A stretch of 64,000 nucleotides of DNA, taken from Hymenobacter radiodurans. GTDB taxonomy: Bacteria; Bacteroidota; Bacteroidia; Cytophagales; Hymenobacteraceae. This document shows, in pieces, positions 326-63,569 of the stretch. The translations under genes were made by a program, and so were the position numbers. Each line of letters starts with the position of its first letter. Position 1 is the stretch's first letter. The notes under the pieces are model-generated. The model searched no databases. It saw only the letters and a program-made list of their open reading frames with translations, and was not told where the DNA came from. The stretch is from NCBI RefSeq assembly GCF_004355185.1, contig NZ_CP037922.1, forward strand, positions 3,442,001 through 3,506,000, written 5' to 3'.

Positions 326-775
326 GTGAAGCGCCCACTTACACATCGGATTTTTAGCGGTCTGCTGGCCCTGCTCATCCTCGCCGCATCGGTGGGGCTC
401 ACGGTGCAGCGGCGTACTTGCCACATTAGCGGGAGGAGCACGGCTAACTTCACCTTCAGTGCAGCCCTTGATGCGTGCCAGCCGAACAACGAAGCGCTCC
501 ATTGTAGCGCCTCCGCTACCTCGCAGTGGCGGCAAGCCTGCTGCGACCTTGCCACCGATTTACACAAGCTAAACGCACCCGCTCCCGCTACGCTGGGGGG
601 CAAATTTTTGGCTGGTCCAGCTATTAATACGTGGGCCACTTCTTCCGTTTGGCCACCTGTTCCGGCGGCGCTTCTGCTGGCGCAAGCAGCTTACCGCTGG
701 TATGCTAGCGACGCCTCGCCTCCACCCCGAGCAGGCCGCTTGTTGCTCGCTTTTGGCTGCATTTTGGTAGTATAA
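326..775 (+). CDS. Small Cys-rich membrane protein, HYC_CC_PP-like family
   Basis: About 149 residues if started at the GTG at 326; an in-frame start at 296 is possible but would lie upstream of the promoter box. The N-terminus has a hydrophobic segment (residues about 10-27) that looks like a signal peptide or anchor. It is followed by scattered cysteines (C32 before H33, C51, C60) and a CC pair at 72-73, then a Pro-rich stretch. This layout resembles the HYC_CC_PP family, found in Bacteroidota beside TonB receptors and HMA proteins. Exactly that neighbourhood follows here: receptor at 877, HMA protein at 3264. A role in metal (probably copper) handling in the envelope is inferred from context. 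No enzymatic motif is visible. The family match is by pattern, not by search. Confidence 0.6.
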   Translation: MKRPLTHRIFSGLLALLILAASVGLTVQRRTCHISGRSTANFTFSAALDACQPNNEALHCSASATSQWRQACCDLATDLHKLNAPAPATLGGKFLAGPAINTWATSSVWPPVPAALLLAQAAYRWYASDASPPPRAGRLLLAFGCILVV

Positions 776-876
776 AGTCTCTCCTATTCTCTGGCCTAGC
801 TGAACTGTATCGGCTTAGGCATGCGGATCATTTAGCTCCGCCATTGCTTTAGGAAATACTTCTACCTCTTTCTGTC

Positions 877-3181
877 ATGAATTTCTTTTCAGGGCGCAAC
901 TTACTGGCGCTGGGGGCTTTTTGCTACTCTTCAGCCAACCAGCGGCCGCCCAAACTCCGGCCAGCTTGCTCATACGTGGGCAGGTGACCGACGCCCCTGC
1001 CGCGGCTCCATTGCCCGGCGCTGTAGTACGCTGGCTCGAAGAGCCTGCGGGTGCTACCACCACCGATGCGGGGGCATTTTTAGCATCCTGCGACCCGCCC
1101 GTGGTGACTCTAACCGTCTTATTATTCAAGCCTTAGGCTACCGGCCCGACACGGTTATTGTAGGAGCCACGGAGCAACTCTTTGTGCGGATGGCCCTGCG
1201 CCGCTCTGCCGAGCTAGGCGAGGTGCGCGTAGAAGAACGAGCGCCTTCTTACTCTGGCATTACTCCTACCAATACGCAGGTCATTACCAGCCGCGACCTA
1301 ACTAAGTCGGCCTGCTGCAACTTGGCGGAGAGCTTCGAAACCAACGCCGCGGTTGAAGTTTCGACCACTGATGCAGTATCGGGGGCCAAGCAGATTCAGC
1401 TATTAGGCCTGGATGGGGCTTATTCTCTGCTTACGGTAGATAATCTGCCGGCTCTGCGTGGCCTAGCTACGCCGTACCGACTAAGCTATCTGGCTGGCCC
1501 CTGGATCGAGAGTATCGACATTATCAAGGGCATGGGCTCGGTGGTGAACGGCTACGAAAGCATGGCCGGCCAGGTGAATGTGCGCCTGCAAGATCCCGCC
1601 AAAACCGACCGTTTGCTCTTCAATGCGTACGTCAACGACCTCGGCAAATTCGATCTTAATCTCAACCTCTCGGCCCCCGTCAATAAGAAACTCAGCACGG
1701 CTCTCCTCCTCCACTCCGATCACCTCGGCCGCCGCGTCGACCGCAACAAGGACAACTTTCTGGATTTGCCTTTGGCCACTCAATTCAACGTGTTCAATAA
1801 GTGGAAATACCAATCGGGCAACGGCATTGTGAGCGAATTGGGGCTTGGTGCTCTGCGCGAAACCCGCCAGGGCGGGCAGGTAGGGTTCCGGGAAGAAGCG
1901 GGTAACCCTTACTACGGCACCTCTCTCCAGACGGACCGCTACACAGGCTTTTCCAAAACCTCTTACACCTGGCCCGGCCGGCCCTATCAGAGCCTAGGCC
2001 TGCTGCTAACCGCCACCGATCACGCTTTTGATTCACAGTATGGGCGCCGCACCTACGATGGTCGCCAGCGTACGGGCTTGGCTACTCTGCTTTTCCAAAG
2101 CGTACTGGGCAATACTGCCCACACCTACCGCGTGGGGCTGAGTTATCTGCACGATAATTATCGGGAAGTATTATTGCAACCTGATTACGCCTCTGCGCCC
2201 TCTGAAACGGCCGCCCAGCGCTACCAGCGCGAAAATCGGAGTCGCCAGGAACGGGTGCCGGGTGCCTTCGCCGAATACACGTATCAGAATGCTCGTAACC
2301 TAACTGTGGTAGGTGGCCTGCGCCTCGACCGTCATAACCTGTACGGCTGGTTCCTGACGCCCCGCCTCAATATTAAGTACGACGCCACCAAGAATACTGT
2401 GCTGCGCTTAGCCGGTGGCTCCGGTTTCCGCACCGCCAATCCCATTGCTGAAAATACGGGTATGCTGGTTAGTTCCCGCGACTTTGTGGTGTCGAATAAC
2501 CTGCGGCCGGAGCAAGCCTGGAATGTGGGGGGCAGTTTTACCCAATACTTTACGCTACTGGGCAAGCCCGCTACCTTCATAGCCGACTATTACCACACTG
2601 AGTTTCAGAACCAAGTAGTAGCCGATGCTTATTACTCGCCCTATCAGCTGAATATCAGCAATCTGCTGCCCGGTGGCCGCTCCTACTCGCGCAGCTTTCA
2701 GGCGGAGGTGCAGGTAACGCCAGTGAAGGGTTTGGAGGCTAAAGCGGCCTATAAATATCTGGATGTGCGCACCGACTATACGGGTCAGCTATTGGCCAAG
2801 CCACTCACGTCTTCCCATCGCATTTTCGCTAATATCGGTTACGCCACTGCCTTCGATAAGTGGCGCGCCGACCTGACGATGCAGGGTTTCGGCAAGCGCC
2901 CCTTGGCTATGAGCCCAGGCGTGGAAGGACAGCATAGCGGGCACGTGCCAGGCGAGCCGCTGCCCATGGCGCCCCGCTTTGCCTTGTTCAATACTCAGGT
3001 TACCCGCGCCTTCAAGCACTGGGAAGCCTACGTTGGCGTTGAGAACTTAACGAACTATCGCCAGCGCAACCCCATTATGGGAGCCAATGACCCATTTGGG
3101 CCGAATTTTGACGCAGCTATGGTTTGGGGACCAGTTTATGGTCGACTCACTTACGTTGGTTTTCGCTTCCGGCTGGAGTAG
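877..3181 (+). CDS. TonB-dependent receptor, interrupted by two frameshifts
   Basis: Outer-membrane TonB-dependent receptor. The intact part (1184-3181, 665 residues) carries the plug (VITSRDLTKSACCNLAESF, then GLDGAYSLLTVDNLP and IDIIKGMGSVVNGYESMAGQ) and a long beta-barrel ending in aromatic-rich strands. The N-terminus is split over three frames. From ATG 877 a signal peptide runs into the G run at 912-916. A second frame continues with QPAAAQTP and a carboxypeptidase-regulatory-like domain (RGQVTDAPAAAPLPGA) up to the G run at 1070-1074. The third frame continues with LIIQALGYRPDTVIVG into the receptor. Adding one G to each run restores a continuous protein with a clean signal peptide. 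Its neighbours, a Cys-rich small protein and a secreted HMA protein, suggest a metal or metal-chelate substrate. The frameshifts may be assembly errors. Confidence 0.85.
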
Positions 3182-3263
3182 TTAACCATCGACCTGCTGA
3201 TAGAGATAATAAAAGCCCCCAGCAGCGTAAAACCTTATTATTTACTTCAAAAACAACCTTCGC

Positions 3264-4755: not shown

Positions 4756-6922
4756 GGTTCCGACTAATTCCGAGAATCTGAGTTGAGGCGGGCAAAGTGA
4801 ACCGGAAGATACTGCCCTGCCCTACCTCACTCTCAAAGCTAAGTTTGCCGCCGTTGCGCTCCACAAAGTCTTTGCAGAGCAGCAGGCCCAGACCAGTACC
4901 TTTCTCACGGGCCGTGCCGAGCGTAGTATGAGGTCCGCCCTGCCCAAAGATTTTCTCCCGATCGGTAGTGGAAATACCCATCCCTGAGTCGGTGACCGTA
5001 ATTTCCCACATAGTGCCCAAGGGCTGCGCTGCTACGGTTACGGTACCAGCAGCAGGTGTAAACTTAATGGCATTCGCCACCAGATTGCGCAGCACCAACC
5101 GAATCATATTCAGGTCGGCGTGCACTACACAGGGTTCCTCGACGTGGTTTAGCAAGTAAATTCCTTTTCGTTCGGCATCACTGAGCAGCAGCGACAGGGT
5201 TTCCTCCACAGCCTCATCGAGGTATACGGGCTCAGGCCGAGTTGCTTCGCCCCCCATCTGTGCCGCTGACCAATTCAGCAGGTTGTCGAGCAGGCTCAGA
5301 GTAGTATCCAACATTCGGCTAAGCCGTTCGGAGTGTACTGCAAGCCGCTCAGGAGGCAATGCGCCCATATTGAGTAGGGAAAGCATTGAATACAAAGACC
5401 CCAGCGGGCTGCGCAAATCATGCGAAATCACCGAGAACAACGTGTTTTTGGTTCGGTTTAGCTGTCCTAATTCATCACGTTGAGCCTGGATATCTACGTT
5501 CTGCTGCTGCAGCAAACTATTGAGGCGGCGATGGCGGCGGCGACTACGATATAATACCCCAGCCAGCACGATCAGCACGGCTGTTCCGGTCAAGAGCACA
5601 TCACGCAACAGTTGCTGACGGCGCAGCTGGCTGGCCTGAATTTGCCGGTCTTTAGTCAGCAACTGAATTTCGCGCTCCTTCTTTTCAGTTTCATAGCGCG
5701 TCTGCAATTCAGCCACCTGCGCTGAACGTTGCTCGGCAAATACACTATCCTGCAACTCAGCATAATGACGCAAAGCGTCCAGACTCAATGAATACTGGTT
5801 GTCGCGCTGGTACAGATTTGACAGCGACTGATAAATGCTACTCACCCGGCTAAGCGCGCCTGCCTGCCGGGCCAAGGGCAAAGCTTGCTTTAGGTAAGCG
5901 CTGGCCCGCTCATGATTGCCAATTGAATCGTGGGCAGTGGCCAAGCAGTGCAGCAGGTCGGCGGTATAGCCTGGAGCCGTGGTAGGGGGCAAATTGGTAA
6001 GCGCCTGGGTATAAAATCCCATTGCCACTTCCTGGTTGTTCATGGCCTGATATACCTGTCCAATGCTGGCAAGCGTTTGGCCGGTGCAGGCACTATCCTG
6101 ATACTCTAATGCCTTGCGGTAAGCACGTTGCAGATGATAAAGGGCGCGGCTGTAGTGGCGCTGTTGGCGGTGTACATGGGCCATATTGTTCATAGCTACC
6201 ACCGTCTGGTACTCGTTTCCAGCCTTTTGCCAAGCTACTAGCGCCTGCTCGTGGTTTTTCAGGGCTTGGGGCCATTTAGCCTCGCTAGTATATAAATGCC
6301 CTAGCAATTCATGCCCATGAGCCACACCAGCTAGGTTCTGAAGCACAGTAAACGATTTCAAAGCAAGCAGATATGTTTCGCGGGCCTTGCCGGTATCGCC
6401 TTGGCTAAACTGGGCACTACCTAACGCATACCGAACGGTGGCGGCTTTATCCGAATTACGCGTCCGTACATAGTAGCGTAGCGCGGCGGCGAAGTGTGGC
6501 TCCGCCTCATCATAGCGGTGCAAGCCTTCCAGAGCACGTCCTAGTTGCAATTGCGCAACAGCAGTCTGGGGGGCATTTTTAACTTTCGTAGCAGCTTCTA
6601 AAGCAATTTTGGCCTGCTTCAGAACGTGAAGTGGATCGGCTACAGTAACCGGGTGACTGGCTTGCTGATGCTGTTGGGCAAAGGTAAGAGGTGTCGGATT
6701 TGACGCATACACTGTAGTGCCCAAGCCGGCACCAATCAACAAGACGAGAATGACCCTACTTGCGCAGTTAATTGAGAGTTCTAATAGTAGGTTTGCTTCC
6801 CACCTTGTCCACAGTGAACCCGCCATACTCAGACAAGCCTGCGCTTGTTGAGCCCGGCGGGCACAAGTAGTGATTAAAGCCCTAAAAACGGTGGTAACTA
6901 TCAAAACGTCAACCTGAAACAC
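4736..6922 (-). CDS. TPR-repeat sensor histidine kinase
   Basis: Up to 728 residues from a GTG at 6922. An ATG at 6826 also fits and leaves the hydrophobic segment RVILVLLIGAGLG as signal or anchor. The sensor part is a series of tetratricopeptide repeats (about residues 95-400), followed by a coiled coil, one membrane span (about 441-458), then HisKA with H501 in SVISHDLRSPLGSL, an N box (LVLRNLVANAIKFTP), the G1 box DSGMGIS and the G2 box GTGLGLLLCKDF. This is the common Bacteroidota architecture of a periplasmic TPR sensor with a cytoplasmic kinase. It has no fused receiver. The convergent LytTR regulator is the obvious candidate partner. Confidence 0.88.
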   Translation of the reverse strand: MFQVDVLIVTTVFRALITTCARRAQQAQACLSMAGSLWTRWEANLLLELSINCASRVILVLLIGAGLGTTVYASNPTPLTFAQQHQQASHPVTVADPLHVLKQAKIALEAATKVKNAPQTAVAQLQLGRALEGLHRYDEAEPHFAAALRYYVRTRNSDKAATVRYALGSAQFSQGDTGKARETYLLALKSFTVLQNLAGVAHGHELLGHLYTSEAKWPQALKNHEQALVAWQKAGNEYQTVVAMNNMAHVHRQQRHYSRALYHLQRAYRKALEYQDSACTGQTLASIGQVYQAMNNQEVAMGFYTQALTNLPPTTAPGYTADLLHCLATAHDSIGNHERASAYLKQALPLARQAGALSRVSSIYQSLSNLYQRDNQYSLSLDALRHYAELQDSVFAEQRSAQVAELQTRYETEKKEREIQLLTKDRQIQASQLRRQQLLRDVLLTGTAVLIVLAGVLYRSRRRHRRLNSLLQQQNVDIQAQRDELGQLNRTKNTLFSVISHDLRSPLGSLYSMLSLLNMGALPPERLAVHSERLSRMLDTTLSLLDNLLNWSAAQMGGEATRPEPVYLDEAVEETLSLLLSDAERKGIYLLNHVEEPCVVHADLNMIRLVLRNLVANAIKFTPAAGTVTVAAQPLGTMWEITVTDSGMGISTTDREKIFGQGGPHTTLGTAREKGTGLGLLLCKDFVERNGGKLSFESEVGQGSIFRFTLPASTQILGISRNPNVAAG

Positions 6923-7131: not shown

Positions 7132-7884
7132 CTAACGAGCAGCAGTCTCTTTCGCCTGCCACAGCCGCCACCAAGGCAAATAGGGCTGGTCGTGGTGCTC
7201 GTAGTGATAGCCGAAGAAATAACAGCTCATGAACGCCCACAAATGATGGCGAAACTGACTGCGAGATTTATGCAAGTTGTGCTCGGCGTGCTCGCCGCGG
7301 TGGGGCAGATACGTACCAAAAAAGAACAGCTGCACCGTAGCCAGAATAGCCGGCACCATCCAGAAGGCAATGACATTCGCCTGCGGGAAAGATAGCTTCA
7401 ACACATTGTAGGTTGCCGCCATCAGTACAATCTGCCACCATGTAACGTAATTCCAGGCAAAGCGCGCCAGCCAGGGCAAAAAACCTGGGTGATGACCATC
7501 GTGAAAATCGGGGTCATCATGGGTGCCCACATGGCGGTGATGCTGGTGATGCTTCGGCAGCATCCGAGGAAACCAGTTGAAAGCAAATAACAATGCAGCC
7601 ACAGTGCCCAAGCCATTATTCAGGCGTTTATCAGCGCTTACCACGCCATGCATTGCGTCGTGGGCGGTGATAAATAGGCCCGTATACAAATGTGTTTGGA
7701 GTAACAGCAGTAGGTACGGCCACGGCGTACGCCAATTAGGCTCGTAAAACGCCAGTAGAAACGTTAATAAAGCCCCCCAACTCAGCATAATCACCCCAGC
7801 AACTAGCACACCCTTATTGCCAACTGGCGCAGGTTTGAGGCGCGTAGTAGCAGCGGAAGGATGAGCGGTTGCTGTTGTATGCAT
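7132..7884 (-). CDS. crtW: Beta-carotene ketolase (CrtW type)
   Basis: 250 residues of the membrane fatty-acid-desaturase fold. Three di-iron histidine boxes are visible: HDAMH at 75-79, HHQHH at 112-116 and HYEHH at 227-231. Four hydrophobic stretches lie between them. The length and boxes fit CrtW, the 4(4')-ketolase that adds keto groups to beta-ionone rings of carotenoids, better than a lipid desaturase. Its place beside ispH, crtB, crtI and crtZ supports this. It lies about 100 bases downstream of ispH on the same strand. The exact substrate cannot be read from sequence. Confidence 0.85.
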   Translation of the reverse strand: MHTTATAHPSAATTRLKPAPVGNKGVLVAGVIMLSWGALLTFLLAFYEPNWRTPWPYLLLLLQTHLYTGLFITAHDAMHGVVSADKRLNNGLGTVAALLFAFNWFPRMLPKHHQHHRHVGTHDDPDFHDGHHPGFLPWLARFAWNYVTWWQIVLMAATYNVLKLSFPQANVIAFWMVPAILATVQLFFFGTYLPHRGEHAEHNLHKSRSQFRHHLWAFMSCYFFGYHYEHHDQPYLPWWRLWQAKETAAR

Positions 7885-7980: not shown

Positions 7981-8829
7981 TCAGAGCGCCAACAGAGCGT
8001 CGCGTACATCTTCCATGAGCCACATGGGCGTACTGGTAGCCCCACAAATACCAACTGATTGGCCTGGCTCAAACCAACTGGCACAAATTTCTTCCACTTT
8101 CGAAATAAAGTGGGTTTGAGGGTTGGTATCCTTGCAGACTTGATAGAGCACTTTGCCGTTACTGCTCTTCGTGCCCGACACAAATACAATTTGGTCGAAC
8201 TGGGCAGCAAACTTACGAAGGTCTTTATCCCGGTTGCTCACCTGCCGACAGATGGTATCGTTGGCATTGATGGCGTAACCTCGCTCTTCCAGTTCACCCT
8301 TAATGCGGTAAAAGCTGTCGGTGCTTTTCGTGGTTTGGCTGTAGAGTGTGATGTTGGGGGGCAATTCGTGGCCCAACAACTCGTCTAGGTTCTCGAAAAC
8401 GACGGCGTTGCCGCTGGTCTGGCCCAGTAAGCCGCGCACTTCAGCGTGACCGTGCTTGCCGTAAATGAATATTTTTTCCTGCTTATCGTAGCTGGTTTTG
8501 ATGCGATTTTGCAGCTTCAGCACCACCGGGCACGAAGCGTCAATCAAGGTCAGATTATTTTCTAAGCCTGTTTGGTAAGTACTGGGTGGCTCGCCGTGGG
8601 CCCGAATCAGTACTTTCTCATCGCGCAATTGCGCCAGGGTATCGTAGTCAATAATGCGCAGTCCACGCTCTTCCAGGCGCTCTACTTCCTCGTCATTGTG
8701 CACAATGTCGCCTAGGCAGTATAAGTAGCCCTGTTCTTCCAGGATATCTTCGGCCATTTGGATGGCATAGATAACACCGAAGCAAAAGCCAGAGTTAGGG
8801 TCGATACGGACGCTCAGATGGTGCGGCAT
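7981..8829 (-). CDS. ispH: 4-hydroxy-3-methylbut-2-enyl diphosphate reductase
   Basis: 282 residues, the last enzyme of the MEP (non-mevalonate) isoprenoid pathway, making IPP and DMAPP with a 4Fe-4S cluster. The three cluster cysteines are visible: C16 in SGFCFGV, C100 in DASCPVV and C194 in DTICRQV. Substrate-binding motifs RAHGE, GKHGHAEV and SGTKSSN are present, as is the C-terminal ICGATSTP. A complete protein of normal length. Being upstream of crtW within the pigment cluster, it links isoprenoid precursor supply to carotenoid synthesis. Confidence 0.95.
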   Translation of the reverse strand: MPHHLSVRIDPNSGFCFGVIYAIQMAEDILEEQGYLYCLGDIVHNDEEVERLEERGLRIIDYDTLAQLRDEKVLIRAHGEPPSTYQTGLENNLTLIDASCPVVLKLQNRIKTSYDKQEKIFIYGKHGHAEVRGLLGQTSGNAVVFENLDELLGHELPPNITLYSQTTKSTDSFYRIKGELEERGYAINANDTICRQVSNRDKDLRKFAAQFDQIVFVSGTKSSNGKVLYQVCKDTNPQTHFISKVEEICASWFEPGQSVGICGATSTPMWLMEDVRDALLAL

Positions 8830-10088: not shown

Positions 10089-10122
10089 AAAAAGCCCCCA
10101 ACAGTTGGCTGGGGGCTTTTTT
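10089..10122. terminator. Intrinsic terminator after crtB
   Basis: AAAAAGCCCCCA pairs with TGGGGGCTTTTT around a 9-base loop. It lies immediately 3' of crtB (minus strand) and shares its stem with several other terminators in the window. Confidence 0.85.
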
Positions 10123-10969: not shown

Positions 10970-11045
10970 GGCTATGGAAAGGCGAAGAGGTGAAAAGGAT
11001 TAATTACCTCCCATAAGTGGACTGGGGGGCAATTTGTTCGAGCAG

Positions 11046-12524
11046 TTAGTCGATTGAGAATTCTTTAAATATTTCCCCGGCCACTACCTGCCCAGATATC
11101 AGGGAGGGCGGCACGCCGGGGCCAGGCACCGTAAGCTGCCCCGTAAAATACAGATTACTTACCTTTTTACTTTTCAGCGTGGGCTTGAGAATGGCGGTTT
11201 GCTTGAGTGTATTAGCCAAACCATACGCATTGCCTTTGTAGCTATGGTAATCGGCCACGAAGTCGCTATGCGCATAGCTGCGCTTATAGATCACCGCATC
11301 GCGGATGCTCTGGCCGGTCAGTCGCTCCAAGCGATCCATAATCAGGTAATAATACCGCTCGCGGGTTTCCTCTGGGTCGGCTAAGTCTGGGGCAACGGGC
11401 ACTAGCAGGAACAAGTTTTCGCAGCCGTCAGGCGCTACCGTGGGGTCGGTTTGAGAAGGCAAGGAGGCGTAAAACAATGGTTTGGTGGGCCACTGCGGCT
11501 GCTCATAGATCTCCTGGGCGTGGCGGCCAAAGTCCTCATCAAAGAAGAGGTTGTGATGACGTAAGTTTTTCAGCCGCTTATTCACTCCCAGATAAAACAG
11601 CAACGACGAAGGCGCCATTGTGCGAGAATCCCAATACTTTTCGTCGTAGTGCCGGTGCTGGGGGGCTAATAATTGTTGCTCGGCGTGATGGTAATCGGCG
11701 CCAGCTACTACAATATCAGCGGCACGAAAGCCAGCCGCAGTTTGCACGCCCGTCGCACGGCCGTTTTCTACGCGTATCTCCTGCACTTCTTGGTTGTATT
11801 CCAGCTTCACACCTTGCTGCTGGGCTACTTGCACCATGCCTTCCACTATCTTGTGCATGCCGCCCCGCGGGTACCACGTGCCCAGCGCTAGGTCGGCGTA
11901 GTTCATCAGTGAGTACAGCGCGGGCGTATTTTCGGGAGTAGCACCCAGAAACAGAACCGGAAACTCCATGAGCTTAATGAGCTTCTCGTGCTTGAAAAAG
12001 CGGCGCACGTGCCGGCTCATACTCTGCAACACATCCAGCCGCACGGCATCGACAAGCAGGCGTGGGTCGGCAAACTCCAGTAACGAGCGGCCGGGCATGT
12101 GTACAAATTTGTTTATGCCAACCTCATACTTATAAGCAGCCTGTCGCAAAAACTCATCGAGTTGTACCGCGCTACCGGGCTCCAGTTGCTCAAACATGGC
12201 CCGAATGGCGGGCATAGCTGCCGGAATATCCAGAAAGTCGTTATCGCCAAAAATGACGGCGTACGAAGGATCAAGGCGCACCAAGTCATAGAAATCAGCT
12301 ACCCGGTGCCCAAAACGAGCGAAGTATTGCTCAAACACATCGGGCATCCAATACCAGCTGGGGCCCATATCGAAAGTGAAGCCTTCGGCCCGAAACACGC
12401 GTGCCCGTCCACCTGGGCCTTCGTTTTTCTCCAGCACTGTGACTTGGTAGCCGCGCTGCGCTAGGGATGTAGCTGCCGACAGTCCCGCGAAGCCTGCCCC
12501 AATAACTAAAACTTGTTTACTCAC
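11046..12524 (-). CDS. crtI: Phytoene desaturase (CrtI type)
   Basis: 492 residues. FAD-dependent carotene desaturase converting phytoene to lycopene or neurosporene. The N-terminal dinucleotide-binding motif is VLVIGAGFAGLSAATSLAQRGYQVTVLEKNEGPGGRAR. The C-terminal family signature TGQLTVPGPGVPPSLISGQ is present. It is complete and of normal length, and sits upstream of crtB in the same orientation. The number of desaturation steps cannot be told from sequence. Confidence 0.93.
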   Translation of the reverse strand: MSKQVLVIGAGFAGLSAATSLAQRGYQVTVLEKNEGPGGRARVFRAEGFTFDMGPSWYWMPDVFEQYFARFGHRVADFYDLVRLDPSYAVIFGDNDFLDIPAAMPAIRAMFEQLEPGSAVQLDEFLRQAAYKYEVGINKFVHMPGRSLLEFADPRLLVDAVRLDVLQSMSRHVRRFFKHEKLIKLMEFPVLFLGATPENTPALYSLMNYADLALGTWYPRGGMHKIVEGMVQVAQQQGVKLEYNQEVQEIRVENGRATGVQTAAGFRAADIVVAGADYHHAEQQLLAPQHRHYDEKYWDSRTMAPSSLLFYLGVNKRLKNLRHHNLFFDEDFGRHAQEIYEQPQWPTKPLFYASLPSQTDPTVAPDGCENLFLLVPVAPDLADPEETRERYYYLIMDRLERLTGQSIRDAVIYKRSYAHSDFVADYHSYKGNAYGLANTLKQTAILKPTLKSKKVSNLYFTGQLTVPGPGVPPSLISGQVVAGEIFKEFSID

Positions 12525-15917: not shown

Positions 15918-16066
15918 GGTCGTTGGGATTAGCATTGTACGGGCAGCGCCGAGGAACGGAGAAAAGCCCCCCAGGCGCCAATGAGCCGGCGCGGTAATCA
16001 AACCTAACAAAAATGGTGCGGTAAAAGAAGCGAAACAGGGTGAGGCCGCCGCTGGTTTTTCGAATT

Positions 16067-18307: not shown

Positions 18308-18428
18308 GACCAGATAATTGAGCAATAATCCACCAAGAAATTTTGATAGCCGCGGCCACTGATAACTGATAAAAATTTAAATTACCCACTGGTATTATCT
18401 ATAGCATCTGGGGGCTTTTTCAGAAAGC

Positions 18429-47742: not shown

Positions 47743-47785
47743 CGCTTTATAAAACAATAATTGTCCAACAATTGATATTTATTCT

Positions 47786-51019: not shown

Positions 51020-51239
51020 CGCACAGATTTTGCCCCCCAATCGCCTTTTTTTCTTCTCGGCTGTTATCCCGCTGTAAAGTGGGCTAGCTTGCTTTGCGGC
51101 TGTTTGTTTACAAGCAGAGAAAATTTGCCTATCGACTCGCCCAGCGCTTGTTATTTGGCTATTGGTCTTCCATCCTACCGTGTCCTTAAATGCTCCCCTG
51201 CCCGCATAGTACATTTATGATTCTGTTCGTTGTCAAGCT

Positions 51240-53591: not shown

Positions 53592-53594
53592 CCG

Positions 53595-54546: not shown

Positions 54547-55389
54547 CTACTGGCGTTCTATCACCGCCCGAATCAAGGCCGTGAGGCGGGGCTCGGCAGC
54601 AGCGGCGGCGCGTAGAATGTCGGCAATATCTACCTTCTTGAGCTTACCCGGCGAACATAAATCGGTGATGACGGAAATGGCTAGCACGGGCAAATCCATT
54701 TGGCGCGCCGCAATAACCTCGGGCACCGTGCTCATGCCCACAGCATCGGCCCCGATGGTGCGCAGGTAACGATACTCGGCGGGCGTTTCGAGCATAGGGC
54801 CAGGCAGACTGGCGTACACGCCGCGGCGCACATAATTGGTGAAGCCTAAGTCGTGGGCCGCGCGCTGGGCCTGGGCTAGTAGCGTGTGGTCGTAGGGCTC
54901 CAACATATCGGGGAAGCGGGGGCCTAGTTCATCCAGGTTTGGCCCGATGAGCGGATTCGTTGGTTGCAGATTCAGGTGGTCTTCGATGAGCATTAGGTCG
55001 CTCATGGCAAAGTCCGGATGTAGCCCGCCGGCGGCATTGCTTACAAACAGCTTTTGGATACCAAGCAGCTTCATTACGCGCACCGGAAACACCACCTGCT
55101 GCATGGTGTAGCCCTCGTAGTAGTGAAAGCGCCCTTGCATCACCAGCACCCGGCGCCCCGCCAAAATGCCCCCCAATAGCTTCCCGGAGTGACTTTCGAC
55201 GGTCGAGGCCGAAAAGTGGGGCAAGTCGTCGTAAGAGAACTCATGATGGATTTCCAACTCCTTCACCAGAGCGCCCAGGCCGGTACCGAGGATAATTCCG
55301 AATTCAGGTTGGAAGTCGCCGAGTTGGCGGCGGATGTGGTCAGCGGCTTCGCGCAATTGCGCAGTTTGTTGGGCGGCAGTAAGATTCAT
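54547..55389 (-). CDS. Purine-nucleoside phosphorylase (PNP class I)
   Basis: 280 residues. GIILGTGLGALVKELE phosphate loop, HSGKLLGGILAGRRVLVMQGRFHYYEGY, VSNAAGGLHPDFAMSDLMLIEDHLN, VGMSTVPEVIAARQMDLPVLAISVITD. The trimeric PNP family cleaves inosine and guanosine with phosphate in purine salvage. Complete. Confidence 0.94.
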   Translation of the reverse strand: MNLTAAQQTAQLREAADHIRRQLGDFQPEFGIILGTGLGALVKELEIHHEFSYDDLPHFSASTVESHSGKLLGGILAGRRVLVMQGRFHYYEGYTMQQVVFPVRVMKLLGIQKLFVSNAAGGLHPDFAMSDLMLIEDHLNLQPTNPLIGPNLDELGPRFPDMLEPYDHTLLAQAQRAAHDLGFTNYVRRGVYASLPGPMLETPAEYRYLRTIGADAVGMSTVPEVIAARQMDLPVLAISVITDLCSPGKLKKVDIADILRAAAAAEPRLTALIRAVIERQ

Positions 55390-55515: not shown

Positions 55516-55968
55516 ATGACACGCTCTAATATATACTTAGTAAGCATTTTCGTGACTTTATTAAGCTGTAAAAAAAGCCCCCCATCCCCCTTGTCACCAC
55601 AGAAGCAGGCAGTAGGAAGTTATCGTTTCGATAAAATTATTGCTCGTTATTGGACTATACACCCAAGTGGAGGGCACATAGTGAATGTTAAACGCTTACC
55701 AGCAGCCACTTTTGATGTAGTAGCAATCGGTTCAAATTCAATTAAAATCAAAAACTACGTAGTGCCCTATAAGACTATAACTACTGAGTGGCCTGCCGTA
55801 TCGGGCAAATCGTTGTCGAATTATAGTTTTAGCGATGTCAAAGCAGGAGCTTACTATGCCAGAGTCCATCTGGAGGAGAAAGGTGATAGCATACTTCTTA
55901 TTTACAAGAATGGTGGAAATCCAGGCCATTTACCGGACACCACCTACTACGGAAGTAGAATACGCTAA
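55516..55968 (+). CDS. Hypothetical lipoprotein, AT-rich
   Basis: 150 residues. The N-terminus IYLVSIFVTLLSCKKSPPSP has a lipobox-like Cys. No domain is recognised. AT-richer than neighbours. Its 3' end coincides with the start of the long hairpin at 55967-56043. Confidence 0.65.
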   Translation: MTRSNIYLVSIFVTLLSCKKSPPSPLSPQKQAVGSYRFDKIIARYWTIHPSGGHIVNVKRLPAATFDVVAIGSNSIKIKNYVVPYKTITTEWPAVSGKSLSNYSFSDVKAGAYYARVHLEEKGDSILLIYKNGGNPGHLPDTTYYGSRIR

Positions 55969-56043: not shown

Positions 56044-57805
56044 ACTCGATATTCATTTCAAACGGCATGCGCGCCTGCACGCCTTCTAGCTTGATAAGCT
56101 TCTGGTACTGCTCGTACATGGGATAAAGCGGGCCTAGCTCCTGCTTCACCAGTTGCTGCCGCGCTTCTAAGCCAAAGCTCTCGAAGATATTTTCCACGAA
56201 CGTTTTCTGGCGGGGCAAGCTTTGCAAGCGGTAGTCGCCCTCTTCTAGGTTGGCGCGGCGAGCGGCAATGCGCAGGGCATCTTCAAAGGAACCAAGCACG
56301 TCCACGAGGCCACGCTCCTTGGCTTCCGAGCCCGACCATACCCGCCCGGAGGCGTAGCCACGCAGCTTTTCTACGGGCATGTTGCGGCCCTTGGCGGCTT
56401 TGGTGGTGAAGTCGGCGTAGATGCGGTTGACTTCCTCTTGCAGCTGCTGCTGTTCAAAGGCCGTGAGCGGACGCGTGATGGTCGGCAGATCAGAGAACTT
56501 ACCGGTAGTCACGCGGTCGGTGGTGATGCCGAGCTTGTCGCGCATGAGCGGCTGAATGTTGGGCAATACGCCAAACACGCCAATGCTACCCGTGATGGTG
56601 TTCGGATGAGCCACGATGGTATCGCAGGCCATGGCAATAAAATAGCCCCCCGAAGCCGCCACATCGGACATAGAGCACACGATAGGCTTCACTTTTTTGG
56701 TGAGCACCACTTCCCGGTAAATAATATCGGAGGCCAGCGACGAGCCGCCGGGGGAGTTGACGCGCAGTACCACGGCTTTCACTTTGTCGTCGAGGCGGGC
56801 CTGGCGAATGGCTTCGGCAAAACGAGTGCTGCCGATGTCGTTGTTGCCGCCCTTGCCGGTCACGATGTCGCCATCGGCGTAGATGACGGCAATACGTTTG
56901 GAGCCGCTGCCTTTGCTGTCACTGTCTTCACCTCGCTGGTAGGTACTTAGGCTAACAAGACCTAGTTTTTCGTCCTCTTCCACGCCCACTTTCTTTTTCA
57001 TAAAGCTCAGGGCCTGATCGTAGTAGCCAAGGTTCGTAACCAAGCCGAGACGCTTGGCATCGTCGGCGTTGTGTACCAGCATGGAGTCAGAGATGACGCG
57101 CAGACGGGCGGGGGCAATTTTGCGCGACTTCGCCACGTGGCTGAGCATGAAGTCGTTCATCGAATTCAGGAACGACGAGGTTTGCAGCCGCGCCGAATCC
57201 GACATGCTATCCCGGAAATAAGGCTCTACGGCACTCTTGAAAGAACCTACCCGGAAGATATACGGCTCAATACCCAGCTTTTCGAAGAGGTTTTTGTAGT
57301 AGTACGTCTCCGAGCTTAAGCCATTGAATTCCAGTGTACCCTGCGGGTTCAGATAGATTTTATTGGCTACGGAGGCTAGGTAATAGCTCTTTTCAGAAGC
57401 CAAGTCATTGTAGGCAACCACAAACTTGCCCGACTTCTTGAAGTCGATCAGCTCGTTACGAATTTCCTCCAGCGTAGCCATACCGGCTTGCACCAGTTCC
57501 ACATTCAGGAAAATGCCTTTGATGTTGTCGTCCTTTTTGGCGCGGCGGATGGCTTCCTTTATCTGGTCCAGTCCGCTGCTGGCATTGCTACCCCCGCCCA
57601 TAAAGCTGCCCAGCGACTCCGGGTTCTCCCGCTCCGAAATAGGCTGATCGAGCTTCAGCTCCAGCACCGAGTTCTGGGCAATCTCCACCTCATCTTCGGA
57701 GCTGGCGGCCGTCACCAGGACGCCCACGAGCAGCAGAAAGCCGATGAAGGCAAACGCCATTAGACCAACTATCGTGGCCAATACAAATTTCAAAAACTGT
57801 CTCAT
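56042..57805 (-). CDS. sppA: Signal peptide peptidase SppA (protease IV), 67K type
   Basis: 587 residues. One N-terminal membrane span (FVLATIVGLMAFAFIGFLLLVGVLV). Two S49 halves follow. The N half holds the general-base Lys in AYNDLASEKSYYLASVANKIYLNP. The C half holds the nucleophile Ser in MSDVAASGGYFIAMACDTIVAHPNTITGSIGVFG. It digests cleaved signal peptides in the membrane. Complete; a -7 promoter box lies 30 bases upstream. Confidence 0.93.
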   Translation of the reverse strand: MRQFLKFVLATIVGLMAFAFIGFLLLVGVLVTAASSEDEVEIAQNSVLELKLDQPISERENPESLGSFMGGGSNASSGLDQIKEAIRRAKKDDNIKGIFLNVELVQAGMATLEEIRNELIDFKKSGKFVVAYNDLASEKSYYLASVANKIYLNPQGTLEFNGLSSETYYYKNLFEKLGIEPYIFRVGSFKSAVEPYFRDSMSDSARLQTSSFLNSMNDFMLSHVAKSRKIAPARLRVISDSMLVHNADDAKRLGLVTNLGYYDQALSFMKKKVGVEEDEKLGLVSLSTYQRGEDSDSKGSGSKRIAVIYADGDIVTGKGGNNDIGSTRFAEAIRQARLDDKVKAVVLRVNSPGGSSLASDIIYREVVLTKKVKPIVCSMSDVAASGGYFIAMACDTIVAHPNTITGSIGVFGVLPNIQPLMRDKLGITTDRVTTGKFSDLPTITRPLTAFEQQQLQEEVNRIYADFTTKAAKGRNMPVEKLRGYASGRVWSGSEAKERGLVDVLGSFEDALRIAARRANLEEGDYRLQSLPRQKTFVENIFESFGLEARQQLVKQELGPLYPMYEQYQKLIKLEGVQARMPFEMNIE

Positions 57806-57886: not shown

Positions 57887-59218
57887 TTAGTAGTCGTATT
57901 TTGCCCCCCACCACTGCCGCAGCCGCTCGCGCAGTTTCTGTTCGCTGGCGTTGTGGCCAGGGTCGTAGAAGCGCGTGCCGCTGAGGGCTTCGGGCAAAAA
58001 CTCCTGGGGGGCAAAATTGCCTTCATAGTCGTGGGAGTACTGGTATTGCTGGCCGTAGCCGAGTTGCTTCATCAGGCGCGTGGGGGCGTTGCGCAACGGA
58101 ATAGGTACTGACTGCACGCCCTGCTGGCGCACCAGCGCCCGCGCCTCCCGGATGCCTTTGTAGCTGGCATTGCTCTTCACACTAGTAGCTAGATATACAA
58201 CAGTTTGCCCCAGAATAATGTCGCTTTCGGGCAGGCCAATAACCGTGACAGCCTGAAAACAGCTTTGGGCCAGCATCAATGCATTTGGGTTAGCATTGCC
58301 AATATCTTCGGAAGCGAGAATGAGCAGACGGCGCGCAATGAATTTCACGTCTTCGCCGCCTTCCAGCATCACCGCCAGCCAGTACAGAGCTGCATTGGGG
58401 TCGGAGCCGCGAATGCTTTTGATAAAAGCTGAGATGACATCGTAGTGCATTTCGCCGCCTTTGTCGTAGCGGGCGAGGTGTTGCTGCGCCAGCTCCTGCA
58501 CCAACGCATCCGTAATGACAGTTTCACCCGTTTTCGCATCAGCAGGGCTCGCTTCAACTACTATCTCCAGCAGATTGAGCAGCTTACGAGCATCGCCACC
58601 CGAGATAGTGAGCAGCGCATTATACTCGGCTACGCGCACCTTTTTGCGCTGTAGAACTTCGTCTTCGACCAGGGCCTTATCCACCAGTTCAGTCAGCACT
58701 TCCTTGCTCAGCGGCTCCAGCACATACACCTGTGCCCGACTCAGCAAAGCCGGAATTACTTCAAACGAAGGATTTTCCGTTGTAGCGCCAATAAGCGTGA
58801 CCACACCGCGCTCCACCGCCCCAAGCAACGCATCCTGCTGCGACTTGCTGAAGCGGTGAATCTCATCAATAAACAACACCGTGCCCGGCCGCGACTTGGC
58901 TTTCTCAATCACGTCACGCACGTCTTTCACGCCGGCATTAATGGCGCTCAGAGCTACGAAAGGCTGCTTTAACTCTTCGGCCAGCAAATGCGCTAGGGTT
59001 GTTTTGCCCACACCGGGCGGTCCCCACAAAATGATTGATGGCAAACGCCCTCCGGCCAAATAGCGCCGCAGTACGCCCTCCGGCCCCACTAAGTGCTGTT
59101 GGCCAGCATACTCCGCGAGCGTGCGCGGGCGCCGACGCTCCGCAAGCGGAGCATTGGAGTTGGGCTTAGCGGTTTGGGCAGGCGTAGGTTCAGAATCGAA
59201 GAGGGAGCCGGTAGTCAT
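57887..59218 (-). CDS. rarA: Replication-associated recombination protein A (RarA/MgsA)
   Basis: 443 residues from the ATG at 59218. AAA+ ATPase: LAEYAGQQHLVGPEGVLRRYL, Walker A LWGPPGVGKTTLAHLLAEEL, Walker B VLFIDEIHRFSKSQQDALL, sensor GATTENPSFEV; C-terminal MgsA domain with RRLLILASEDIGNANPNAL. It acts at stalled replication forks. Complete. Confidence 0.94.
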   Translation of the reverse strand: MTTGSLFDSEPTPAQTAKPNSNAPLAERRRPRTLAEYAGQQHLVGPEGVLRRYLAGGRLPSIILWGPPGVGKTTLAHLLAEELKQPFVALSAINAGVKDVRDVIEKAKSRPGTVLFIDEIHRFSKSQQDALLGAVERGVVTLIGATTENPSFEVIPALLSRAQVYVLEPLSKEVLTELVDKALVEDEVLQRKKVRVAEYNALLTISGGDARKLLNLLEIVVEASPADAKTGETVITDALVQELAQQHLARYDKGGEMHYDVISAFIKSIRGSDPNAALYWLAVMLEGGEDVKFIARRLLILASEDIGNANPNALMLAQSCFQAVTVIGLPESDIILGQTVVYLATSVKSNASYKGIREARALVRQQGVQSVPIPLRNAPTRLMKQLGYGQQYQYSHDYEGNFAPQEFLPEALSGTRFYDPGHNASEQKLRERLRQWWGAKYDY

Positions 59219-59389: not shown

Positions 59390-60310
59390 ATGAAAAATTC
59401 CCTGCGCGTCCACGCGGCCTTGTTTCTGGTAGCCCTGATTTACGCTGCCAACTATAGTCTCTCCAAGGATGTGATGCCCGAGTACATGGGCCCGTTTGGC
59501 ATCGTCACGCTGCGTATTGTGGGTGCAGCGTTGTTTTTTTCCATTCTCAGTCATCTAATTGCCCCCCAAGACCGCATTCAGGGCCGCGCCGATACTATAC
59601 GTTCAATTATCTGCGGCATCACGGGCATTGGAGTCAATCAGCTGCTGTTTTTTTCTGGGCTGAATTATACATCGCCCATTAATGCGTCGTTGCTCCAAAC
59701 CATTGCCCCCATCGTGGTAGTCATTGCTTCGGCCGTTCTGCTGGGCGAAAAAATCACGAAAGCCCGCGTGGGGGGCATTTTGCTGGGGGCCATAGGTGCT
59801 GCTACGCTTATCCTGAGTCGCAACCCCACCGACGCCATCTACCCGAATGCTACGTTGGGCAATATTCTTATTCTGCTGAATGCCAGCGCGTTTGGGGTAT
59901 ATCTGGTATTGGTTACGCCGCTTATGCGAAAGTATAATGCCTTCACCGTGCTGGCTCGGATATTTCTGGTGGGTGCCGTAATAGCCGTGCCTTTTGGCTG
60001 GCGCGATGCAATTACGACCGACTATGCACATTTCCCGCTTTACATCTGGGCCGAAGTGATTTACATGGTCCTTTTCCTGACCATCATTGCCTATCTGCTT
60101 AATAACTGGGCGCTCAAATACGCCTCCCCTGCCCTGCTGGGCGTGTATATTTATTTGCAGCCGGTGCTGGCCGTGCTTATTGCCGTGAGCTTAGGCAAAG
60201 ACCATTTTACCTGGGGCCGGGCCCTACAAGCGGCCTTGATTTTTGGCGGCGTCTTTTTAGTAAGCCGCAAGCCAAGGCCGCAGGTGCCGTTGGAGCCAGT
60301 ACAGGATTAA
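59390..60310 (+). CDS. EamA/DMT-family transporter
   Basis: 306 residues from ATG 59390. Ten hydrophobic segments in two EamA repeats (FLVALIYAANYSLSKDVMPEYMGPFGIVTLRIVGA near the N-terminus; second repeat from ILILLNASAFGVYLVLVTPLM). A metabolite exporter or uptake carrier; the substrate cannot be read. A terminator follows at once. Confidence 0.9.
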   Translation: MKNSLRVHAALFLVALIYAANYSLSKDVMPEYMGPFGIVTLRIVGAALFFSILSHLIAPQDRIQGRADTIRSIICGITGIGVNQLLFFSGLNYTSPINASLLQTIAPIVVVIASAVLLGEKITKARVGGILLGAIGAATLILSRNPTDAIYPNATLGNILILLNASAFGVYLVLVTPLMRKYNAFTVLARIFLVGAVIAVPFGWRDAITTDYAHFPLYIWAEVIYMVLFLTIIAYLLNNWALKYASPALLGVYIYLQPVLAVLIAVSLGKDHFTWGRALQAALIFGGVFLVSRKPRPQVPLEPVQD

Positions 60311-60312
60311 AC

Positions 60313-60363
60313 AGTAACAAAAAAAGCCCCCCAGCAAATTGCTGGGGGCTTTTTTTGTTACTA
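60313..60363. terminator. Bidirectional terminator, 6 C on one arm against 5 G on the other
   Basis: AGTAACAAAAAAAG-CCCCCC-AGC faces GCT-GGGGG-CTTTTTTTGTTACT around AAATT. One C has no partner. It separates the transporter from lpdA. Confidence 0.85.
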
Positions 60364-60371: not shown

Positions 60372-61766
60372 CTATAAGTGGATTACCTCACCGTAAGCAG
60401 CGGCGGCAGCTTCCATAATGGCTTCCGACATAGTCGGGTGCGGATGCACCGACTTGATGATTTCGTGGCCGGTGGTTTCGAGCTTGCGCGCTACCACTAC
60501 TTCGGCAATCATCTCAGTCACGTTCGAGCCGATCATGTGGGCACCGAGCCACTCGCCGTACTTGGCGTCGAAAATCACTTTTACGAAACCATCTTTCACG
60601 CCGCCGGCGCTGGCTTTGCCTGAGGCCGAGAAAGGAAATTTACCCACCAGAATATCGATGCCTTTGTCGCGAGCTTCTTTTTCGGTCATGCCGACGCTGG
60701 CAATTTCAGGCTGGGCGTAGGTGCAGCCGGGGATGTTCTGGTAGTTGAGCGGCTCAGGGTGATGGCCAGTAATGGCTTCCACGCAGATAATGCCTTCAGC
60801 AGAAGCAACGTGCGCCAGCGCCGGGCCAGGTACGATGTCACCGATGGCGTAGATGCCGTCCACGTTGGTCTTGTAGTACTCATCGACGATGATGCGGCCC
60901 TTCTCTACCTTAATGCCCAGCTCTTCGAGGCCCAGGTTTTCGAGGTTGGTTTGCACGCCCACAGCCGAGAGTACCACGTCGCACTCGATTTGCTGGTCGC
61001 CTTTAGCGGTTTTTACCGTCACTTTGCAGCCTTCGCCCTTCGTGTCCACGTTGGTTACTTCGGCGCTGGTGAGAATGGTCATGCCCATCTTTTTGAAGGA
61101 CTTCTCCATCTGCCGCGACACCTCCTCATCCTCTACGGGAACGATGCGGGGCATGAATTCCACGATGGTTACCTCCGAGCCCATGGCGCGGTAGAAGTAA
61201 GCAAACTCAACGCCGATAGCGCCTGAGCCTACCACCACGAGGCGCTTGGGCATTTGCTCCAGCGTCATGGCCTTACGATACCCGATGATTTTCTTGTTGT
61301 CGATGGGCAGGTTAGGCAACTCGCGTGAGCGGGCGCCAGTAGCCAGAATGATGTGCTTGGCCTCCACGGTTTCTTTCGAACCGTCGGCTTTGGTTACTTC
61401 CACTTTGCCAGGAGCCAGCAGTTTGCCGGTACCCGATACGGTTTCGATTTTATTCTTTTTAAACAGGAAGTTGATGCCCTTGCTCATGCCATCGGCCACA
61501 CCGCGGCTGCGCTGCACTACGGCACCAAAATCATAGCTCGGGTTTTCGACCTTCAGACCATAGTCTTCAGCGTGTTTGAAATATTCAAATACCTGGGCGC
61601 TTTTGAGCAGCGCTTTGGTTGGAATGCAGCCCCAGTTGAGGCAAATGCCCCCCAACGATTCGCGCTCTACTACACCTACTTTCAACCCGAGTTGTGAAGC
61701 CCGAATAGCGGCTACGTAGCCACCCGGCCCACTACCCACCACGACCAGATCATATTGCAATGCCAT
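60372..61766 (-). CDS. lpdA: Dihydrolipoyl dehydrogenase
   Basis: 464 residues from the ATG at 61766 (MALQYDLVVVGSGPGGYVAAIRASQLG). Redox-active disulfide in LGGICLNWGCIPTKALL, NAD-binding VVVGSGAIGVEFAYFYRAMG, FAD-binding DGIYAIGDIV and the dimer-interface catalytic HPHPTMSEA. It is the E3 subunit of pyruvate and 2-oxoglutarate dehydrogenases and the glycine cleavage system. No E1/E2 genes are adjacent. Complete. Confidence 0.95.
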   Translation of the reverse strand: MALQYDLVVVGSGPGGYVAAIRASQLGLKVGVVERESLGGICLNWGCIPTKALLKSAQVFEYFKHAEDYGLKVENPSYDFGAVVQRSRGVADGMSKGINFLFKKNKIETVSGTGKLLAPGKVEVTKADGSKETVEAKHIILATGARSRELPNLPIDNKKIIGYRKAMTLEQMPKRLVVVGSGAIGVEFAYFYRAMGSEVTIVEFMPRIVPVEDEEVSRQMEKSFKKMGMTILTSAEVTNVDTKGEGCKVTVKTAKGDQQIECDVVLSAVGVQTNLENLGLEELGIKVEKGRIIVDEYYKTNVDGIYAIGDIVPGPALAHVASAEGIICVEAITGHHPEPLNYQNIPGCTYAQPEIASVGMTEKEARDKGIDILVGKFPFSASGKASAGGVKDGFVKVIFDAKYGEWLGAHMIGSNVTEMIAEVVVARKLETTGHEIIKSVHPHPTMSEAIMEAAAAAYGEVIHL

Positions 61767-61835: not shown

Positions 61836-61986
61836 ACCAGCGTTTGTTACTCTCAACAATAAGGTTTTAAAGAGCTGGTTTACGTAAAAAGCACGTGAAT
61901 TTGCCCCCCGGCGGCGGCCTCGTCGTACAATACACAACCGCGTGACAGCTGGTCCGGTTTGGGCTCCGTCCTTACTTTCTAGTGTT

Positions 61987-62180: not shown

Positions 62181-62201
62181 AATAAGCTCAGTTATCTCAC
62201 A

Positions 62202-62303
62202 AGGCGGTCATGCAGAGCGGCGCGAAGCATCTCGCCCGCGCCATTAGATTGCTACTCCTGTGTCAGCACGCGAGATGCTTCGCGCCGCTCTGCATGACCG
62301 CCT
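62202..62303. repeat. REP-like inverted repeat, copy 2
   Basis: Perfect 33-bp arms at 62202-62234 and 62271-62303 (34 bp if the next pair is counted), separated by 36 bases. The core is GGTCATGCAGAGCGG followed by GAAGCATCTCG. It differs from copy 1 (32183-32278) by a few bases, yet each copy's own arms match perfectly. Confidence 0.85.
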
Positions 62304-62324
62304 GTTGGAATTTGAGCGGCATAC

Positions 62325-63569
62325 TTACTTACTACCCAACAACAGCTTCACATAGAAGCTAGGCTGCCGCAGCCGCTCGCGCAGGTTCAAATCCAAGAAC
62401 ATATTGCTAATGGTTTCGGCCAGCGTGGGGTTGTTGGCGGCGCGATTGGCAACTACATTAAACAGCCACGGAAACGCTAAGAGGCGCTGCATAGCCCGAC
62501 TCAGGCGCAACTCCTGCCACAGCCGATTATATACCGCTACATCATAGCCTTTGAGAAAGGCAGCCGAGAAATCATGCGCGGCTAGGGCCCGCGCGGCCCA
62601 ATCAGCAGCGTGGCGGCCGCTTACCATCGCGTGACTGATACCTTCGCCGGAGAATGGATCAATGAGAGAGCCCGCGTCGCCGAGCAGCATGTAAGCCTCG
62701 CCGGAAAGAGAGCGGCGTTTTGAACCCAGCGGCAAGCCGAAACCACGCACCGGACCTAAGCGCTCGGCATCTTTAAATCGCTCACGCAGGGCGGGGTGCG
62801 TTTCCAGAATTTCGGTGAGGCGCTGACGCAAATTTATTTTCTTCTGGGAAACGGTTTTGCTCAGCATTCCTACGCCCACGTTGGCCTGTCCATTAGGCAA
62901 CGGAAATACCCAGAGGTAACCGGGCAAAAATTCTTTGATGAAGTGCAGCTCGATAAAGTTGTCTTTGCTCAAGCCCGTTACGCCCTGATAATACGCCCGC
63001 AGGCCGGCGCAATGATGGTCAGGATCCAGTTGATGCCCGCCGATCTGCCGCGCAAACGCCGACTGCGCCCCGTTAGCCACGAGCAATAGTTTCGCGGTGA
63101 TTTCTATGGTGCCATCAGCGGTGCGCAGGTGCCAGCGGCCGTCAGCGGTGCGTTCGTGGTGAGTGATATCCACGCCTTCCAGCAGCTCAATTTCGGGGCG
63201 CTGGCGCACTTCTTCTACCAGAAAATTATCGAAGTCGATGCGTTTGGCGATGTGGCCGGCGGCGGGGTCGGTGGCTTTGTTAAAATGGGGCCGGAACGGA
63301 ATACCGAGCCGGCGACCGTTGGGCGCGAAAAAATCAATGCCCCAGGCGGGCAGCTGGGCAGCATCGGCGGCAAGTCTGGGGGGCAAATTTTCGTTGATGC
63401 GGCGCAGTTCACTTACGACTTTGCCGCTGAGCGCATCGCCACAGATTTTGTCGCGGGGGAAAGTGGCGCGGTCGAGTAGCAGGCAGCGCTGGCCGGCGTT
63501 GGCTAGGTGCAGGGCTGCTGTAGCACCACCGGGCCCAGCCCCAAGAATGCAGATGTCGGTTTCACGCAT
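62325..63569 (-). CDS. Geranylgeranyl-reductase-family FAD-dependent oxidoreductase
   Basis: 414 residues. FAD motif ICILGAGPGGATAALHLANAGQRCLLLDR, the conserved DKICGDALSGKVVSEL, and YMLLGDAGSLIDPFSGEGISHAMVSGRHAA. The family reduces isoprenoid chains (geranylgeranyl groups) or related lipids. Given the carotenoid genes in the window, an isoprenoid substrate is possible, but it is not adjacent to them. Complete. Confidence 0.88.
   Translation of the reverse strand: MRETDICILGAGPGGATAALHLANAGQRCLLLDRATFPRDKICGDALSGKVVSELRRINENLPPRLAADAAQLPAWGIDFFAPNGRRLGIPFRPHFNKATDPAAGHIAKRIDFDNFLVEEVRQRPEIELLEGVDITHHERTADGRWHLRTADGTIEITAKLLLVANGAQSAFARQIGGHQLDPDHHCAGLRAYYQGVTGLSKDNFIELHFIKEFLPGYLWVFPLPNGQANVGVGMLSKTVSQKKINLRQRLTEILETHPALRERFKDAERLGPVRGFGLPLGSKRRSLSGEAYMLLGDAGSLIDPFSGEGISHAMVSGRHAADWAARALAAHDFSAAFLKGYDVAVYNRLWQELRLSRAMQRLLAFPWLFNVVANRAANNPTLAETISNMFLDLNLRERLRQPSFYVKLLLGSK

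Follow-up and report, generated by a model that had tools for sequence, protein, structure and literature searches.

What makes the heptamer GGGGGGC, followed by a run of A and T, so frequent in the chromosome of Hymenobacter radiodurans (Bacteroidota; genome G000)? The question is raised by a 64-kb stretch of that chromosome (C2:3442001-3506000, called the window below), in which a sequence-only reading had counted about 49 dispersed copies and likened them to DNA uptake sequences. An exact recount gives 49, with 22 on the + and 27 on the - strand; 39 of them continue with four A/T bases (W4), and 34 are GGGGGGCA, both as first described. The 15 coordinates quoted at that time fit, those on the - strand being leftmost bases, except for 11034, which should be 11024. 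A third-order Markov model expects 12.3 copies of GGGGGGC in the window (z 10.5), while under a fifth-order model the figure is 28 (z 4.0), which is too high because the motif itself inflates the model's 6-mers. The best reading of the motif, to which we give an even chance, is that it is an uptake-type tag of self DNA, which would be read by a pilus-independent receptor.

The form of the motif was taken from 464 kb of chromosome, made up of the window and 20 stretches of 20 kb, one every 240 kb. The 349 copies of GGGGGGC in this sample give a logo of T (79%), six G, C, and 5-6 A/T bases with a final T; written in full, the motif reads T-GGGGGG-C and then 4-6 A/T, for the most part as AnTm. 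The preceding T, the flank of 5-6 bp and the scarcity of TpA in that flank were absent from the first description; among 231 flanks of five A/T bases downstream of TGGGGGGC, 34 contain TpA, compared with 61-68% of comparable runs elsewhere. AnTm runs are rigid A-tracts with a narrow minor groove, a point of general knowledge rather than of any shape computed here. In 544 kb of chromosome there are 278 copies of TGGGGGGC plus W4, while single-base variants number 1-7 copies each at the central G positions, 0-8 at the C and 7-18 at the first G, with 59 for the change of the first T to C, and a run of seven G is found once. With its centre near-invariant, its ends tolerant and the 7-G run found only once, the motif is a defined site and not a homopolymer effect.

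Among the 349 sampled sites, 53 are GGGGGGCTTTTTT; 36 of these 53 are intergenic, some as inverted pairs that resemble intrinsic terminators. A form with five G also exists, and the idea that it is plain degeneracy was rejected, with TTTTT coming next at 93 of the 168 5-G sites of H. radiodurans (a terminator class). The ratio of 5-G to 6-G sites is 168 to 347 in this genome and 49 to 81 in H. qilianensis, compared with 4 to 35 in two 24-kb loci from Hymenobacter sp. BT188 and H. roseosalivarius; contig names in the BT188 assembly are typical of a short-read assembler, and the method for H. roseosalivarius is not stated. Some 5-G sites of H. radiodurans and H. qilianensis may be homopolymer errors. 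At window positions 33546, 41683 and 46894, the H. qilianensis locus (L031) has a G run one base shorter than its relatives, possibly through homopolymer errors of assembly or through slippage.

The enrichment extends over the whole genome, which consists of two contigs of 4,728,901 bp (the chromosome) and 190,065 bp (taken as a plasmid): the 13-mer TGGGGGGCAAATT has 294 copies, 139 on the + and 155 on the - strand, while its reversed control has 0 and 0. The idea that the motif is a by-product of intrinsic terminators, of composition or of codon use has the terminators in its favour: in the 544 kb there are 45 hairpins in which two inverted motifs, each with 5 or 6 G, stand between a run of A and a run of T, in the form AAA-GCCCCC-loop-GGGGGC-TTT, compared with none in 308 kb from 13 outgroup loci. 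Four such pairs, all unstranded, lie in the window, three of the 5-G form at 10089..10122, 38569..38603 and 40838..40872, and one at 60319..60356. The uptake signal sequences (USS) of Pasteurellaceae and the DNA uptake sequences (DUS) of Neisseriaceae also form terminator pairs.

Most copies, however, are genic. Predicted genes, which cover 81% of the 464-kb sample, contain 255 of its 349 GGGGGGC, 147 in sense and 108 in antisense orientation, so that the motif is only mildly richer between them; all six frames are in use, unevenly (86, 54, 49, 44, 17 and 5), which bears out the statement that all frames of genes are occupied. Synonymous codon shuffling (60 shuffles of 373 open reading frames from a simple caller, 376 kb within the 464 kb) leaves a mean of 8.8 and a maximum of 17 copies of GGGGGGC plus W4 in genes, where 205 are observed, while the reversed pattern has 1 observed and 1.9 after the same shuffles. 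Codon or protein constraint is thus not the cause, as the sequence-only reading had held, and composition alone would have to account for 116 of 120 congeneric genomes with 0-1 copies of the 13-mer. The by-product explanation is refuted for the coding copies and is, overall, hardly tenable.

Being short, abundant and non-palindromic, the motif could in principle orient something along the chromosome, either as a Chi-like recombination site, an option raised at the outset, or as a pointer of the FtsK-orienting polar sequence (KOPS) type, and the genome encodes an FtsK with a gamma domain. Such signals have a replication-strand bias, which the motif lacks: besides the near-equal strands genome-wide, there are 169 + and 183 - copies in the 544 kb, and at most 54% are co-oriented with replication for any origin assumed (the origin was placed at varied positions rather than mapped). 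The Chi-like option is disfavoured by this absence of polarity, and an orientation signal of either kind is very improbable. An apparent strand switch along the chromosome was rejected, as the 20 stretches spread over it show none; single stretches may be lopsided, the first of the 20 having 14 + and 2 - copies. The gammaproteobacterial dif pattern, which comes from another phylum than the host's, has no match. Sites with 5-6 G show a more even spacing than random ones (coefficient of variation 0.81 vs 0.92, P 0.0005, with gaps of 60 bp or less excluded).

The motif is sharply limited by lineage. Four of 120 Hymenobacter genomes have 294, 308, 270 and 209 copies of TGGGGGGCAAATT; counts and places identify two of them, besides H. 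radiodurans, as H. roseosalivarius (G041) and H. qilianensis (G197), and the last (G206) is taken, by elimination, to be Hymenobacter sp. BT188. These four are called the tagged genomes below, and the tag is present in them about once per one and a half kb. Among 150 genomes drawn from the family, GGGGGGCWWWWT has 2,091 copies in H. radiodurans and 2,140 in H. roseosalivarius, and at most 16 in the other 148; among 395 genomes drawn from the Bacteroidota, TGGGGGGCWWWTT has 1,352 copies in H. radiodurans alone, the next highest count being 9. The tagged species are also the closest named relatives by one protein (BT188 98%, H. qilianensis 97% and H. roseosalivarius 96% identity), and the four form one group, with a support of 100 by the Shimodaira-Hasegawa-like approximate likelihood ratio test (SH-aLRT), in a one-protein tree of 27 rows (the window and 26 loci).

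At orthologous positions the four species often share a site, while the outgroup sequence mostly differs by substitutions. Comparison of window sites with ten outgroup loci gives 61 cases, which reuse the same few sites across loci (3-9 per locus); no case is an identity, 49 show nothing but substitutions and 12 involve a gap. Inserted repeats, such as repetitive extragenic palindromic (REP) elements or miniature inverted-repeat transposable elements (MITEs), would be seen as insertions absent from relatives, which is not the pattern of those 49. Read by eye, Hymenobacter sp. YC55 (L033) uses other codons at 33542 and 34965 for the same residues. USS have also spread by substitution. Once present, the core tends to persist: H. 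qilianensis retains the 7-mer at 48 of the 68 sites that could be aligned, compared with 922 of 2,056 (45%) other 7-mers made up of G and C, and two small samples give 10 of 13 sites for BT188 (control 43%) and 8 of 12 for H. roseosalivarius (control 42%).

Two sites of the window, 28150..28160 (-) and 34965..34975 (-), are kept in all four motif species, the second with substitutions in outgroups, and at 26004..26014 (+) and 46134..46144 (+) the core is kept in all four. That at 26902..26912 (+) is kept in BT188 and H. qilianensis, the H. roseosalivarius sequence not being aligned there, and that at 25403..25413 (-) is present in BT188 and not at this place in H. qilianensis or H. roseosalivarius. 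Changes are seen in H. roseosalivarius at 28723..28733 (+; one G), in BT188 and H. roseosalivarius at 32936..32946 (-), and in H. qilianensis at 43436..43446 (-; C to T), at 46890..46900 (-) and at 33542..33552 (-; one G fewer, with substitutions in outgroups); the site at 35332..35342 (-) is not in BT188. Over 21,857 four-way aligned bases, informative sites join H. radiodurans with BT188 at 427 places, with H. roseosalivarius at 430 and with H. qilianensis at 216, and they are clustered, 488 of 1,072 neighbours agreeing compared with 384 (standard deviation 15) in shuffles. Such a patchy, blocked phylogeny would be expected if the species exchange DNA by homologous recombination.

On the second contig GGGGGGC is no more frequent than expected (65 copies vs a Markov expectation of 69), and GGGGGGC plus W4 is 11-fold rarer there, at 0.058 per kb, than in the 544 kb of chromosome, at 0.647 per kb; this one 190-kb contig, taken as a plasmid, is the whole of the test of rarity in foreign DNA.

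Which genes might serve such an uptake? The window encodes a ComEC-family inner-membrane DNA channel at 16067..18325 on the - strand (PF03772, E 9.8e-54), whose score with the NCBIfam ComEC/Rec2 model, 117 bits, is below the cut-off of 190; three motif copies lie within it, at 16193..16203 (+), 17684..17694 (+) and 18175..18185 (-). ComEC was searched for in the window only, and we take the gene as context for the uptake reading, its link to the motif being putative. DprA is present in all 13 genomes searched, four tagged and nine untagged. Riemerella anatipestifer is described as transforming with ComEC, DprA, ComF and RecA together with novel proteins, and the machinery of Bacteroidota as partly unlike the usual one (both in PMC8459023); Riemerella columbina is reported to favour its own DNA, and the account lists frequent A/T-rich k-mers while leaving their role open (PMC7965970).

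Several results weigh against an uptake tag. PilB/PilT/GspE-type ATPases (PF00437; controls match in 14 of 14) and the prepilin signal (PF07963; controls match in 8 of 14) were found in none of the four tagged genomes, in a pilus search made with these two families, secretin and prepilin peptidase being outside it. Each has a strong match in just one of nine untagged relatives, and since most of these thus lack them too, the absence is not special to the tagged clade; equally, since DprA is in all nine untagged genomes, it does not explain the limits of the clade. DUF5689, to which an essential surface protein of Riemerella belongs, is in 7 of 9 untagged and 0 of 4 tagged genomes, and gave no candidate receptor; a TonB-dependent receptor with a CarboxypepD_reg domain, followed by a DUF4249 protein (51240-54464 of the window), was dropped as well, such pairs being general in Bacteroidota. 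A shallow search of titles found no report of competence in Hymenobacter. In-gene sites lean towards the sense strand (by the counts given above), the even spacing is not significant for the strict 6-G form (a trend at P 0.09), recently acquired DNA of any kind would show the scarcity seen on the second contig, and unequal rates could partly produce the block pattern of the informative sites.

That no pilus parts were found in the tagged genomes favours instead a site for a protein acting on the chromosome inside the cell -- nucleoid-associated, or engaged in repair or segregation -- which arose in the clade and spread by selection at the level of the cell rather than by any bias of uptake. 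So do the sharp, non-palindromic core of G-tract and A-tract with its near-invariant centre, the conservation of sites at orthologous places and the rarity of the motif on the second contig. Against it stand the lack of orientation along the chromosome, the terminator-like pairs, as in DUS and USS, and the expectation that thousands of mostly genic sites would each need a selective gain, where a bias of uptake would drive them freely. Such a protein site is possible but on balance unlikely.

To return to the uptake tag, the likeness drawn by the sequence-only reading survives in the motif's layout and density, in its symmetry between strands and scarcity on the second contig, and in its origin by substitution, terminator pairs and lineage limits; it fails in the pilus parts. 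The motif behaves most like a DNA uptake sequence, yet we do not assign it to the DUS class, because neither PilB/PilT-type ATPases nor type IV prepilins were found in the four genomes; for the same reason a type IV minor pilin is unlikely to be its receptor. What we infer for the tagged clade is competence, a receptor and a bias of uptake. A surface receptor would bind the tag on extracellular DNA, so that tagged fragments would enter cells more often; their import and recombination would fall to ComEC and DprA, together with RecA; recombination would copy tagged alleles over untagged ones; and near-matches would become full tags by point substitution and then be kept.

The terminator pairs and the spread by substitution are shared with USS, as already said. 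The motif also resembles USS in its short, non-palindromic core with a near-invariant centre, its A/T tracts, its presence on both strands and its spacing of about a kb; the USS is described in PMC7811141 as a near-invariant core with rigid, narrow-groove AT tracts at about 1 kb spacing. It differs, as far as a comparison from sequence alone can tell, in an unrelated core, in a single A-tract directly after that core, in its phylum and in the type IV pilus ATPase and prepilin not found in tagged Hymenobacter. Like DUS it is a tag confined to one lineage, where each genome has about two thousand copies, and related groups differ in their motif; unlike DUS it has an A-tract flank and, no prepilin being found, no ComP-type minor-pilin receptor, and the motifs of two Hymenobacter groups (see below) are unrelated rather than small variants of each other. 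The spread of uptake sequences has been explained by mutation together with biased uptake (PMC1939737). The claim that the motif had no published description holds for the open-access literature searched, in which none was found, most subscription journals being outside the search.

The second group is marked by CTAGGCCAS, which has 4,221, 4,041, 2,424 and 4,018 copies in four of the 120 Hymenobacter genomes (G181, G182, G222 and G226) and at most 320 in the other 116; the four are disjoint from the tagged genomes, which have 47-62 copies. Likely members of this set are H. fodinae and H. wooponensis, both with samples in which the motif is abundant; the samples that belong to the second motif are L037, L054, L101-L105 and L122-L124. 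Sites of this motif too differ from outgroups mainly by substitutions: set beside L036, L038 and L059, 26 of 34 cases do so, 8 have a gap and no pair is identical; beside L030 it is 5 of 8. Two unrelated motifs mean that dispersed motifs arose more than once in Hymenobacter.

Others are found in the family, counted over both strands, so that palindromes are counted twice. The near-palindrome CTAGGCCA has 88 copies in 123 kb of H. fodinae (6.5 expected) and 60 in 84 kb of H. wooponensis (4.8 expected); GGGGCCCC has 204 in 124 kb of H. nivis (24 expected; samples of H. nivis and kin L044, L051, L060 and L111-L115); and ACCTAGGG has 18 in one 24-kb locus plus 2.5 kb of Solirubrum (L041; 1.0 expected). 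When 8-mers were scanned in single 20-kb pieces from 20 genomes, some of them also sampled as a locus, one motif stood out, ACCTAGGT, with 32 copies in 20 kb of G080 (L142; 1.0 expected, z 31); the runner-up, ATCCGGAT in G078, has just 6 (z 16.5). Samples of 103-125 kb each from YC55, norwichensis, BT190 and mucosus contain no motif of such strength. Separately, Hymenobacter sp. HSC-4F20 has an excess of CTACCCC, followed some 20 bp downstream by an AA that is loosely conserved (samples L134-L137, L059 and L038), and in the 24-kb loci L030, L031, L032, L038 and L059, from several species, the palindrome GTGCGCAC exceeds expectation about 8-11-fold.

These palindromes bring to mind the highly iterated element HIP1 of cyanobacteria, which like the present motif has thousands of dispersed genic copies and a function that is unsettled. 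A similar element, tied to a DNA methyltransferase or to a bias of repair as proposed for the cyanobacterial GCGATCGC, is a further candidate, encouraged both by the dispersed GGGGCCCC, ACCTAGGT and CTAGGCCA in other Hymenobacteraceae and by the link between HIP1 and methyltransferases described by Elhai, 2015 (PMC4390886). HIP1 (GCGATCGC) is a palindrome, however, whereas the core of the H. radiodurans motif is not palindromic and its A-tract stands on one side, giving it a direction; a HIP1-like origin is improbable here. TAGGCC, GGGGCCCC and CCTAGG, palindromic or nearly so and with no A-tract, may for that reason be HIP1-like and not part of the same system.

The remaining copies of core plus W4 in the window lie on the + strand at 595..605, 6568..6578, 8356..8366, 11024..11034, 11660..11670, 13686..13696, 21241..21251, 52893..52903, 58006..58016, 59770..59780 and 63378..63388, and on the - strand at 7768..7778, 15962..15972, 20939..20949, 51028..51038, 53108..53118, 55164..55174, 55573..55583, 56641..56651, 57899..57909, 59557..59567, 61643..61653 and 61899..61909, together with 60322..60332 (-), which is one arm of the hairpin at 60319..60356. 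An sbcC-like gene at 44307-47752 is read in two overlapping frames, one base being missing near 46183 relative to three relatives, through either a frameshift or a sequencing error.

According to PMC12616744, all bacteria with uptake sequences so far belong to just two families. We propose, tentatively and at less than even confidence, that Hymenobacter holds the first uptake tags outside the Neisseriaceae and Pasteurellaceae, read by a new, pilus-independent outer-membrane receptor, with separate tags (TGGGGGGC-A-tract and CTAGGCCAS) in separate groups. If true, this would be a third independent case of uptake tags, in another phylum and apparently with no pilus, and tagged uptake would be possible on other envelope machinery; the four tagged genomes and their 116 untagged congeners offer a clean comparison in which to search for the receptor. 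Whatever the cause, thousands of short, identical sites built by substitution in a single genus, and a second, unrelated set in another group of it, make up a natural experiment on molecular drive.

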